Shown one piece after another: positions 6,474 to 11,982 of a stretch of 64,000 bases of DNA. Made by a program: the position numbers and the translations under genes. This DNA comes from Microcoleus sp. FACHB-831 (GTDB lineage: Bacteria; Cyanobacteriota; Cyanobacteriia; Cyanobacteriales; FACHB-T130): contig NZ_JACJON010000061.1 of assembly GCF_014695585.1 (NCBI RefSeq), positions 1-64,000 of the forward strand, given 5' to 3'. Numbering within the stretch: the stretch's first letter is position 1; every line of letters starts with the position of its first letter. The notes under the pieces are model-generated. The model saw only the letters and a list, made by a program, of their open reading frames with translations, was not told where the DNA came from and made no database searches.

Positions 6474-7535
6474 ATGACTCCCCAAATTGCATCTATAGCG
6501 GCTAATTATCAGTCTCCTGCCAATACAATTTCCTCAGTGGACGGCACATCTAAATCAGCGCAATTTACAGTTCATTCGCTTGCGGCTTTGTGGGCGAGGA
6601 AATACTACGTTTCCGTTACTGCGGAATATGACGCGCAGCAAAACCGCAAGGATGCAAATTTAAGGGAGATTAATTCTAAAGAAGGGCGCGATCGCACCGC
6701 TAGCAAGTTGATGGAAAACCTGAATTTAGCCAGCGCCAACGCTTGGTCTAAAACAGAAACGCTGCTATCGGAGGAAATTCGACGACACGGCATCAACCCC
6801 GACTTGATCAACCCATTGGAGATTGCCGCAGACACTCGCTTCTTATTCCAAAAAGTGTTAAATGCCTACTCTGGGATGGATACGGCACAAAGGGTGTCAG
6901 TTACAGTAGCAGGGGACTTCGGTCGGGTGCGGCAGAACTACACAAGCGTCGATCCTCGCGCCATCGGCTTCGTGAGCATGCAGTTTCACTACACTGGGCA
7001 AATGTTATTGGAGTGGCTCTCGCCACAAGAACAAGTAGAGTGGATGCCCTACTTGAAAATGATGGACGATCATATGTATATGCCGCTACGGGCTGCCTAC
7101 GAAGCTGCGGGGAACCACGATTTTGATTCTCCGGCTCTGAAAGCAGTTCAGCGTCTTTTGCCCGTCAGCACAAAAATTGCCCAAGTTGTTTGCAATAATG
7201 TTTGCCGTCAGCACCCCAGCTATCGTACCTACAGCGGTTCTTTGAGAGATGCAATTGTCAAAACCGCTAGCATCCGCGACGCTGAAATGTTTCAGGTCTA
7301 TCTGTGTCTATGCGTTTTGCAAGACAACATGGGTGCAGTTCTCAGAGAACTCTTTCCCCTGTGCGTGATGTTATATCCCCGCCTGAATGTGAGCTGGAGA
7401 CTCGTGCAAGAAATGCTCCAGACTATGGGCTGGGAAATGCACAATCATCTGTCTCCTAGTGAAATGGCAGTCATATTGCCTTATCTGCGTACCATGAATG
7501 AGATATTTTCTGATGATGTGTTCAAAAACCTCTAA
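6474..7535 (+). CDS. Conserved-looking hypothetical protein, 353 residues
   Basis: I do not recognise this protein. It is soluble and mostly helical, with no signal peptide and no obvious catalytic motif. The first 30 residues are Ser/Thr/Ala-rich and look flexible. The ordered part runs from about LAALWARKYYVSV through FVSMQFHYTGQMLLEWLSP to a Met-rich C-terminus. Codon use is even and the frame is long, so it is a real gene. ATG 6474 has only a weak binding site. The gene is monocistronic, with long spacers on both sides. Confidence 0.65.
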   Translation: MTPQIASIAANYQSPANTISSVDGTSKSAQFTVHSLAALWARKYYVSVTAEYDAQQNRKDANLREINSKEGRDRTASKLMENLNLASANAWSKTETLLSEEIRRHGINPDLINPLEIAADTRFLFQKVLNAYSGMDTAQRVSVTVAGDFGRVRQNYTSVDPRAIGFVSMQFHYTGQMLLEWLSPQEQVEWMPYLKMMDDHMYMPLRAAYEAAGNHDFDSPALKAVQRLLPVSTKIAQVVCNNVCRQHPSYRTYSGSLRDAIVKTASIRDAEMFQVYLCLCVLQDNMGAVLRELFPLCVMLYPRLNVSWRLVQEMLQTMGWEMHNHLSPSEMAVILPYLRTMNEIFSDDVFKNL

Positions 7536-9717: not shown

Positions 9718-11982
9718 TTAAATTCTAAAATCTAAAATTGGTTTAGGTTTAGCAATAAAATAACCCTGAGCATAATCCACCCCTAGCGATCTTACCTTTT
9801 GTAGAATAGAATCATTAGCAACATACTCAGCAATAGTTTGAAGACCCATTACGTGCCCGATACGGTTGAATGCTTCCACCATCGCAAAATCAATCGGATC
9901 GTCGGCAATGTCTTTAACAAAGGCCCCATCAATTTTTAAGTAATCAACAGGCAGAGACTTAAGATAAGCAAAAGAAGACATACCGCTGCCAAAATCATCT
10001 AAAGCAAAGCGACAACCCAACGACTTTAAATCTTTAATCAGCCCAGCAGCTTTACCCAGATTTGCAATAGCTACTGTTTCTGTAATCTCGAAGCAAATTA
10101 GCCCCGTCGGGATTTGATATATTGACAACTGCTCCTTGAGGAAGTCAATAAAATTGTCGTCGTTAACGGTAGCACCAGACAGGTTGATTGCATAAATTGA
10201 TTTTAAATTTAGTGGCTTTCTCAAAATGCCAGATGAACTATCGGATAGCCAAGTAAAGAACGTGCGGATTACCCAGCGGTCAACGCTTGGCATCAGGTTA
10301 CAGCGTTCGGCTGTCGGGAGAAATGCCATTGGCGGTATCAACTCGCCGTTGTCATCCACCAAGCGCAGCAAAACCTCGTAATGAAACCCTGTAGCTAGGT
10401 CCGCGTTGAGGGGGGCGATGGGTTGGTAGTACAAGCAAAACTGATCGTCTGCGATCGCTCTCTCTATCCGCGCCACCCACAACATATCTAGCCGTTGCTG
10501 TGTTAAATCTACATCGTTAGCTTCGTAGAGATGGACGCGATTTCGCCCTTTATTTTTAGCGGCATAGCATGCAGCGTCAGCGTCATTTAATACCTTGTCT
10601 ACGTTGGTAGTTTGCTCGTTAATCGTCACAATACCAATACTGACACCGATGCTAAAAGGTTTTTCCTGCCACGCAAACCGGAATATATTAATACTTTCTT
10701 GCAACTGTTGAGCTACTCTTAGCGCTGACTCTAGAGGGCAGTTGTACAGCAATAAGGCAAATTCATCGCCTCCCAGCCGCGCCAGAACATCTGTCTTACG
10801 CACGCTGTTTTGTAACAAACTGCTGACCTGACGCAACAGTTCATCGCCAGCGACATGGCCGCAAGTATCGTTGACAATCTTGAACCGATCGAGATCCAGA
10901 TAACAAAGCGCGTGTGTATGTTTTGACGTTCTGGCATCAACTACAGCTTCCTCCAGGCGCTTTTCAAATTCGCGGCGATTGGCTAAACCTGTCAGCTGAT
11001 CGTGGGTTGCTTGCCATGATAGTTGTTGATTTGCTTGTTGCAGGTGAGCAGTACGCTCTCCTACCAGTTCTTCGAGATGTTCTTGATACTGCCGCAGCGC
11101 CACCTCTGCTTGCTTGCGCTTAGTAATGTCTTCCACCATGCGAATGCCGAATTGCGGCTTTCCTTCACCGTCCCGCACGCTGGAAACGGTGATATGACAC
11201 CAGAGCAACTGCCCATCTTTGCTAAGGTAACGTTTCTCCATTTGGTATGAGTCGTCGCGCTCAAGCAGCGGTCCATCTTTGCTAAGGTAACGCTTCTCCA
11301 TTTGGTAGAAGTCACTTTTCCCGCTTATTAACTCCTGATAACGCTCCCAACCCGTAGGCAAATTTACTAAATCGGTATATTTCCTAGAAGTTATTTGTTG
11401 GCAATCATTCTCGCTGTAACCCAGCATCCGTGATAAAGCAGGGTTCATCGCCACAGGTTGTCCGTTAACGTCTATGAGCGCGATGCCGATGGCTGCTCCC
11501 TCAAATACCGATCGGAAGCGAGCCTCGCTATGACGTAGCGCTGCCTCTACTTGCTGGCGATCGCTGATTTCTGCTGCTAGTTTTTGGTTAGCTGCTTCTA
11601 GGTCGGCAGAGCTGGGGAGTGCAAGCACTTTGGGAATCAACCCAACCAGTTTTACAGCAGTGTAACAAGACATAAAAGCCGCGATCGCTTTTATAAAACC
11701 AGACAGCCAGTAGTTTGGGTGCCAAAGCGTCCAAACTTCCATCACATGGCTGGTGCCGCAGGAAATCATAAATGCTCCAAACAGCAGAAACATCCAGCGG
11801 AATGGCACATCTCGCCTCTGGTGGATGAAGTAGATAAGCGTGATAGCAATTGAATAATAAGCTAGTGCTATCGATAAATCTGAGACTATGTGCAACGACA
11901 ACAGCTCTGACTTCCATAGATAGCAGTGTCCGTGCGGAATAAACGAGTTCGTGGCCAAGAGGTTTTTTAAAAGTTCCAACAT
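9718..11982 (-). CDS. Ethylene-receptor-like sensor with PAS, GGDEF and EAL domains
   Basis: The protein has 754 residues and would act at the inner membrane. The first 115 form three membrane helices resembling the plant ETR1 ethylene-binding domain. SDLSIALAYYSI and FGAFMISCGTSH keep D35, Y42, I45 and the copper ligands C75 and H79, but the Pro that follows SI in ETR1 is Ala46. A coiled link leads to PAS (about 150-285). GGDEF follows with intact GGDEF at 404-408 and an RKTD inhibitory site just before it. The EAL domain has EVL at 536-538, LDDFGSG and TIAEYV. Both cyclase and phosphodiesterase look catalytically complete, so it should make or degrade c-di-GMP. The PAS contains a 20-residue tandem duplication. 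Confidence 0.9.
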   Translation of the reverse strand: MLELLKNLLATNSFIPHGHCYLWKSELLSLHIVSDLSIALAYYSIAITLIYFIHQRRDVPFRWMFLLFGAFMISCGTSHVMEVWTLWHPNYWLSGFIKAIAAFMSCYTAVKLVGLIPKVLALPSSADLEAANQKLAAEISDRQQVEAALRHSEARFRSVFEGAAIGIALIDVNGQPVAMNPALSRMLGYSENDCQQITSRKYTDLVNLPTGWERYQELISGKSDFYQMEKRYLSKDGPLLERDDSYQMEKRYLSKDGQLLWCHITVSSVRDGEGKPQFGIRMVEDITKRKQAEVALRQYQEHLEELVGERTAHLQQANQQLSWQATHDQLTGLANRREFEKRLEEAVVDARTSKHTHALCYLDLDRFKIVNDTCGHVAGDELLRQVSSLLQNSVRKTDVLARLGGDEFALLLYNCPLESALRVAQQLQESINIFRFAWQEKPFSIGVSIGIVTINEQTTNVDKVLNDADAACYAAKNKGRNRVHLYEANDVDLTQQRLDMLWVARIERAIADDQFCLYYQPIAPLNADLATGFHYEVLLRLVDDNGELIPPMAFLPTAERCNLMPSVDRWVIRTFFTWLSDSSSGILRKPLNLKSIYAINLSGATVNDDNFIDFLKEQLSIYQIPTGLICFEITETVAIANLGKAAGLIKDLKSLGCRFALDDFGSGMSSFAYLKSLPVDYLKIDGAFVKDIADDPIDFAMVEAFNRIGHVMGLQTIAEYVANDSILQKVRSLGVDYAQGYFIAKPKPILDFRI
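11213..11332 (-). repeat. Two tandem 60-bp copies inside the PAS region
   Basis: The segment CCATCTTTGCTAAGGTAACG occurs with a period of exactly 60 bases and continues nearly identically for about 35 bases, including the CTCCATTTGGTA part. In the protein it yields YQMEKRYLSKDG twice, 20 residues apart. The duplication is in frame and recent-looking. Confidence 0.9.

Follow-up and report, generated by a model that had tools for sequence, protein, structure and literature searches.

The gene at 9718–11982 on the minus strand of the window analysed here (the whole stretch of 64,000 nucleotides, bases 1–64000 of contig 61, from the 6.42-Mb genome of Microcoleus sp. FACHB-831) encodes a 754-aa protein that we read, with a probability of about 0.6, as a bacterial ethylene-receptor-type membrane sensor acting directly on c-di-GMP; it would hold Cu(I) in its membrane domain, work mainly as a phosphodiesterase, and have a weakened or lost affinity for ethylene. 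The open reading frame runs from ATG to stop on the minus strand, which the initial annotation of this interval did not name, and the reading frame on the plus strand is riddled with stops. The protein is composed of a three-helix ethylene-binding domain (EBD), a stalk, and PAS, GGDEF, and EAL domains, and its features are as follows:

9718–11982, minus: whole gene, 754 aa, EBD (three transmembrane helices)-stalk-PAS-GGDEF-EAL (open reading frame list and Pfam)
11617–11904, minus: ETR1_N (PF25487) ethylene-receptor domain, aa 27–122 (Pfam, 133.6 bits against a cut-off of 27, E value 3.1e-39, whole-genome search)
11818–11910, minus: predicted transmembrane helix 1, aa 25–55, with D35, Y42, I45, and A46 (AlphaFold2 model, hydropathy)
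11845–11847, minus: codon of Ala46, the equivalent of ETR1 Pro36 (alignment)
11722–11799, minus: predicted transmembrane helix 2, aa 62–87, with M72, C75, and H79 (AlphaFold2 model, hydropathy)
11767–11769, minus: codon of Met72, the equivalent of ETR1 Ile62 (alignment)
11746–11760, minus: codons Cys75 to His79, predicted Cu(I) ligands (invariance in 186 of 186 domains)
11620–11712, minus: predicted transmembrane helix 3, aa 91–121, with K98 (AlphaFold2 model)
11536–11610, minus: stalk helix between the membrane domain and PAS, aa 125–149 (AlphaFold2 model)
11119–11523, minus: PAS domain, aa 154–288 (Pfam)
11188–11307, minus: 20-aa tandem duplication within PAS, copies at aa 226–245 and 246–265 (45 of 60 nt identical)
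10537–11010, minus: GGDEF domain, aa 325–482 (Pfam, E value 1e-47), with GGDEF motif 404–408 and RKTD I-site 395–398
9745–10470, minus: EAL domain, aa 505–746 (Pfam, E value 1.6e-64), with motif EVL at 536–538

All four Pfam domains exceed their curated cut-offs, and their E values exclude a chance match; none of 14 control genomes matched the ETR1_N profile. The profile search that the initial annotation had proposed as a check on its N-terminal ethylene-receptor-like domain thus returned a significant match, and its reading of the output as PAS-GGDEF-EAL holds as well: no HisKA or HATPase domain was matched in the 754-aa protein at E values up to 0.001, so that this protein lacks the histidine kinase output of the plant type. 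The same-strand downstream neighbour is a gene of the tetrapyrrole methylase family (RsmI-like) and the upstream neighbour, transcribed divergently, encodes a pfkB-type kinase. Pfam searches of nine neighbouring genes, three of which have no Pfam match, gave no hint of copper or ethylene, and a promoter and terminator scan found no more sites than in shuffled sequences. Elsewhere in the window, a 353-aa protein encoded at 6474–7535 carries a C-terminal Phycobilisome match barely over its cut-off (23.5 vs. 22.2 bits, E value 5.8e-5).

An AlphaFold2 model of the membrane domain built with 76 aligned domains has a mean pLDDT of 90.5, with 117 of 150 residues at 90 or above, and contains the three helices that had been proposed; the full-length model is weak (mean pLDDT 65). 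Among solved structures, a sequence search with the membrane domain gave one match, at an E value of 0.26, and a fold search gave none at E values up to 0.001. By spacing, the seven ETR1 residues associated with ethylene fall on D35, Y42, I45, A46, M72, C75, and H79, the one at Y42 corresponding to Y32, which we take to be the seventh essential residue of ETR1. Five of the seven are kept, with Pro36 replaced by Ala46 and Ile62 by Met72, the latter lying three residues before the Cys as Ile62 does in ETR1. The residues listed in the initial annotation are therefore correct, including the Ala at the proline after SI and the retained Asp, Tyr, Cys, and His, but the list omitted the change from Ile62 to Met72. 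C75 and H79 correspond to the ETR1 Cu(I) ligands Cys65 and His69 and form a copper site predicted by sequence; K98 is presumed, from AzoEtr1 numbering, to be the equivalent of ETR1 K91. Alanine scanning is reported to have identified seven residues as essential for ethylene binding by ETR1 (PMC11819568), among them C65, H69, I35, P36, and I62 (PMC6586836) as well as D25 (PMC11819568). We take the Pro to Ala replacement found here to be the same change as in that scan. The ethylene-insensitive tomato mutant Never-ripe is reported to be Pro36Leu (PMC6727826), and comparison with it is limited by the change being Pro to Leu there and Pro to Ala here. Because a receptor with Asp changed to Asn is reported in a review to work still, at an affinity approximately 100-fold lower (PMC13012798), residue changes may tune binding and not abolish it.

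To place these replacements we used a pooled set of 222 open reading frame rows comprising 187 distinct domains, from which the truncated row L189 was dropped to leave 186. The set is biased to close relatives, as it includes the best 80 of 112 loci, the loci of the family, and regions of the own genome; 29 new loci from a survey of the phylum, 57 regions, and the loci of one further genome survey were also pooled, whereas L001–L008, L096, and L171, which are repeat copies of own-genome loci, were omitted. Fifty of the 57 regions were drawn from the listed rows that had no locus, at roughly one row in two, and seven were picked by length or score. Records named as cyanobacteria account for 77 of the best 80 of 112 loci, and 3 of the 80 carry non-cyanobacterial labels. 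EBD loci L026, L075, and L063, which are in metagenome-assembled genomes labelled Gracilibacteria or Acidobacteria, lie near cyanobacterial ones and are possibly on mis-binned contigs.

Across these domains, nearly all of them cyanobacterial, the Cys and His are invariant (186/186), and the Asp (183/186), the Tyr (185/186), and the Ile at position 45 (185/186) are almost always kept. The invariance of Cys and His argues that the metal site is still under selection, and the predicted site probably binds Cu(I). Pro is kept in 169 of 186 domains and is replaced by Ala in seven, Ser in seven, and Thr in three, with no other residue occurring; its absence from 17 domains means that loss of Pro is not rare, and the best tree, although poorly resolved, places 12 changes at this position. 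Ile at position 72 is kept in 183 domains, and Met72 is unique to this protein. This protein deviates in 4 of the 41 columns with a conservation of 90% or more (median 1), and only four of the 186 domains deviate more. Output classes were assigned by single-sequence searches with the GGDEF and EAL domains of this protein and the kinase region of one paralogue, which left 30 of 187 domains unclassified, at least two of them kinases. With kinship ignored, a residue other than Pro at position 46 is more frequent in the fusion group described below (four of six members) than among kinase-class domains (10/144; Fisher P = 0.0007), and likewise in c-di-GMP-type domains as a whole (5/13; P = 0.003); an independent-pairs test that takes kinship into account had only one supported pair available. 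Two of the domains first left unclassified, L020 and L046, are HisKA_2 kinases with Thr, which makes the contrast in Pro between kinases and c-di-GMP types slightly smaller. These two together with the 10 of 144 kinase-class domains without Pro rule out that loss of Pro is confined to c-di-GMP outputs.

By sequence, the closest relative of solved structure is PA0861 (RbdA; 5xgb) from Pseudomonas aeruginosa, which matches aa 316–749 with 505 bits. In the EAL domain E536, N600, E632, D662, D663, K683, E719, and Q739, which we take to be the catalytic positions, are all present as judged from the RbdA alignment, and both the GGDEF motif and the I-site are intact. Nine distinct EBD-GGDEF-EAL proteins and four EBD-GGDEF proteins are included in the 187 distinct domains; in the seven of the nine that were aligned, the GGDEF and EAL positions examined are kept with two exceptions, Lys at E719 in two of the seven and Gly at the I-site Arg in one. 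RbdA and RmcA are reported to show increased phosphodiesterase activity upon GTP binding and no cyclase activity in vitro, whereas other dual GGDEF-EAL proteins with intact domains are reported to be bifunctional (PMC10874727). The behaviour of RbdA and RmcA suggests that net hydrolysis is favoured here, and by analogy the GGDEF-EAL pair would most likely act mainly as a phosphodiesterase; with GGDEF and I-site intact, net cyclase activity is possible.

Eight ETR1_N proteins are encoded in the own genome, on contigs C35, C66, C47, C39, C54, C61, C73, and C68; six have histidine kinase outputs, one is the protein described here, and one, on C68 (L095:566–3652, minus strand), ends in GGDEF with the architecture EBD-PAS-GAF-GGDEF. 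The site of this C68 paralogue reads A-Y-I-A-S-C-H, so that Asp, Pro, and Ile are changed to Ala, Ala, and Ser, and Cys and His are kept. Numbers of ETR1_N proteins per genome in the family (six genomes) range from 1 to 9 and are among the highest listed across the phylum. Among 386 genomes drawn across the phylum, at least 88 have matches to the EBD and linker; because at most 10 candidates per genome were scored in this survey, and two per genome in the further one, absence in these surveys proves nothing. One EBD open frame, G387:C1:7062962–7063402, has a single internal TAA.

The EBD-PAS-GGDEF-EAL architecture recurs beyond this protein. A tree of GGDEF-EAL regions groups it with L126, L127, L018, L078, and L172 (support 97/93, the bootstrap not being fully settled), and the other four members group likewise when L126 and L127 are left out (100/98). 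These six proteins come from six genomes: L126 and L127 represent a different genus within the family, L018 is from a record named Aphanothece, L078 is from Microcoleus vaginatus, and L172 is from another family of the same order. Residue 46 is Ala in this protein and L078, Ser in L126 and L127, and Pro in L018 and L172, whereas D, Y, I, C, H, and K98 are unchanged both in the group and in the seven aligned fusions. Two of the six, L018 among them, keep all seven ethylene residues. In the tree without L126 and L127, L182 pairs with a protein that has no EBD (100/100), and gain or loss of the fusion therefore probably happened on more than one occasion; in the tree with them, which includes 11 of 14 named EBD-less proteins and L174 as an overlong piece, a single fusion change is all that is required if only the well-supported branches are counted. 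The placement of L129, which sits on a very long branch, is uncertain. The tandem duplication in PAS is present in L126, L127, and L018 and absent from L078 and L172; its presence in the former three rules out recent slippage or a fault of the assembly and indicates that it was inherited. The first copy lies mostly in a stretch of the weak full-length model with pLDDT below 50 (198–243), and the second is in predicted strands.

The mechanism we infer takes the domain order, residues, relatives, and conservation described above as its basis and draws on homology for copper, the dimer, the signal path, the net enzymatic direction, and the loss of ethylene affinity. The input would be the three-helix domain, probably dimeric, with Cu(I) held by Cys75 and His79 near Asp35. 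When a ligand binds at this site, or metal occupies it, the stalk helix and the PAS dimer would move and thereby alter the working of GGDEF-EAL, in which the GGDEF half would bind GTP and the EAL half would mainly hydrolyse c-di-GMP, as in RbdA. With the equivalents of Pro36 and Ile62 replaced, high-affinity binding of ethylene would be weakened or lost in this member. The initial annotation had proposed a link from ethylene or a related small ligand to biofilm and motility control; the homology of the domain and the c-di-GMP output stand, and judged from the domains the c-di-GMP link is solid, but the ethylene part is weaker, and high-affinity ethylene sensing by this protein is doubtful. It is less so for L018 and L172, and the ancestor of the group of six was plausibly ethylene-competent.

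Ala46 and Met72 might be tolerated in a fully working ethylene receptor with a c-di-GMP output, a tentative reading that we hold to be clearly less probable than that of a sensor with weakened or lost ethylene affinity. It is consistent with the retention of five of the seven residues and of K98, with a Pro swapped solely for Ala, Ser, or Thr in its 17 domains and 12 changes on the poorly resolved best tree, and with the two group members that have all seven residues; moreover, the effect of changing Pro36 was determined in a plant protein, and a cyanobacterial receptor may be less sensitive to it, and ethylene is reported to affect phototaxis and biofilm in Synechocystis via SynEtr1, biofilm in Azospirillum via AzoEtr1, and phototaxis in Geitlerinema. 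Against it stand the reported place of P36 and I62 among the seven essential residues of ETR1 (PMC6586836, PMC11819568), the occurrence of Met72 in no other domain, and the unusual number of deviating conserved columns. An equally tentative possibility is that in one lineage the ethylene pocket was retuned while the Cu(I) site stayed fixed, giving a copper-based sensor that would set c-di-GMP in one polypeptide in response to a different ligand, such as CO, acetylene, some other alkene, or Cu(I) itself.

Least probable, and in our view unlikely, is that the membrane domain is a vestige serving as anchor and dimerizer, with the signal coming from PAS or a partner. The C68 paralogue, lacking three of the seven residues, would fit such decay, and so would one of 12 presumed orthologous pairs from sister genomes, several of whose loci are incomplete: in 11 pairs the EBD equals or exceeds the remainder of the protein in conservation, but in L126/L127 it falls below it (79 vs. 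86% identity), yet this is the most diverged pair (EBD dS 0.48, others 0.01 to 0.24). The EBD dN/dS of L126/L127 is 0.22, inside the range of the other pairs, and the domain is therefore still constrained, which together with the invariance of D, Y, I, C, H, and K98 across the seven aligned fusions argues against a vestige. In all four pairs with a changed residue, and in one of eight canonical pairs, dN/dS is higher in the EBD than in the remaining protein; this comparison is post hoc and involves few changes and one dS of 0.01.

In the available text of the literature pairing ethylene with GGDEF, EAL, or c-di-GMP, no fusion of an EBD to either enzyme domain is described; subscription-journal reviews may mention outputs of this sort, and the EBD-GGDEF-EAL architecture is very likely already visible in domain databases. 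In some bacteria ethylene alters motility and the formation of biofilms, and both traits are under the control of c-di-GMP. A link in one piece would differ from SynEtr1 and AzoEtr1, which are described as two-component sensors, and would allow direct action of ethylene on c-di-GMP to be tested with purified proteins. Because Cys and His stay constant while Pro, Ser, and Ala alternate at position 46, the group provides a natural series for probing the role of Pro36, and bears on whether such domains sense ethylene only.

SynEtr1/UirS (Slr1212) from Synechocystis PCC 6803 and GeiEtr1 and GeiEtr2 from Geitlerinema likewise have a cyanobacterial N-terminal ethylene-binding domain. SynEtr1/UirS, a sensor kinase, is reported to sense UV-A as well (PMC5812497), and GeiEtr2 to contain PAS, PAC, GAF, and receiver domains (PMC6682694), whereas the output here is GGDEF-EAL. 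All seven residues are reported to be kept in GeiEtr1 and GeiEtr2, unlike in this protein, which differs at two, and the GeiEtr2 gene adjoins a gene with a diguanylate cyclase domain (PMC6682694). AzoEtr1 from Azospirillum brasilense, reported to be linked to biofilm formation, shares the numbering of D35, C75, H79, and K98 with this protein, and its K98 pairs with the Asp; unlike this protein, it keeps seven of seven residues, its ethylene binding was measured, and its authors read it as a two-component type with an adjoining response regulator gene (PMC11819568). On the output side, the PAS-GGDEF-EAL region resembles that of RbdA, and PA0285, also from P. aeruginosa, is reported to be a dual GGDEF-EAL phosphodiesterase whose N-terminal part contains two transmembrane segments (PMC10874727). 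The EAL motif is EVL here, ELL in RbdA according to the alignment, and ESL in PA0285, and the accessible part of the same source mentions no ethylene-receptor domain in RbdA or PA0285 (PMC10874727). The closest parallels among our loci are two gene pairs, L020:5977–10954 and L063:4040–8187, in which the gene for an EBD protein (a HisKA_2 kinase in L020, with a HisKA match below the cut-off in L063) is followed on the same strand by a REC-PAS-GGDEF-EAL gene; these also join the EBD to c-di-GMP enzymes, but through two adjacent genes and presumably a phosphorelay, whereas the protein described here does so in one fused chain.
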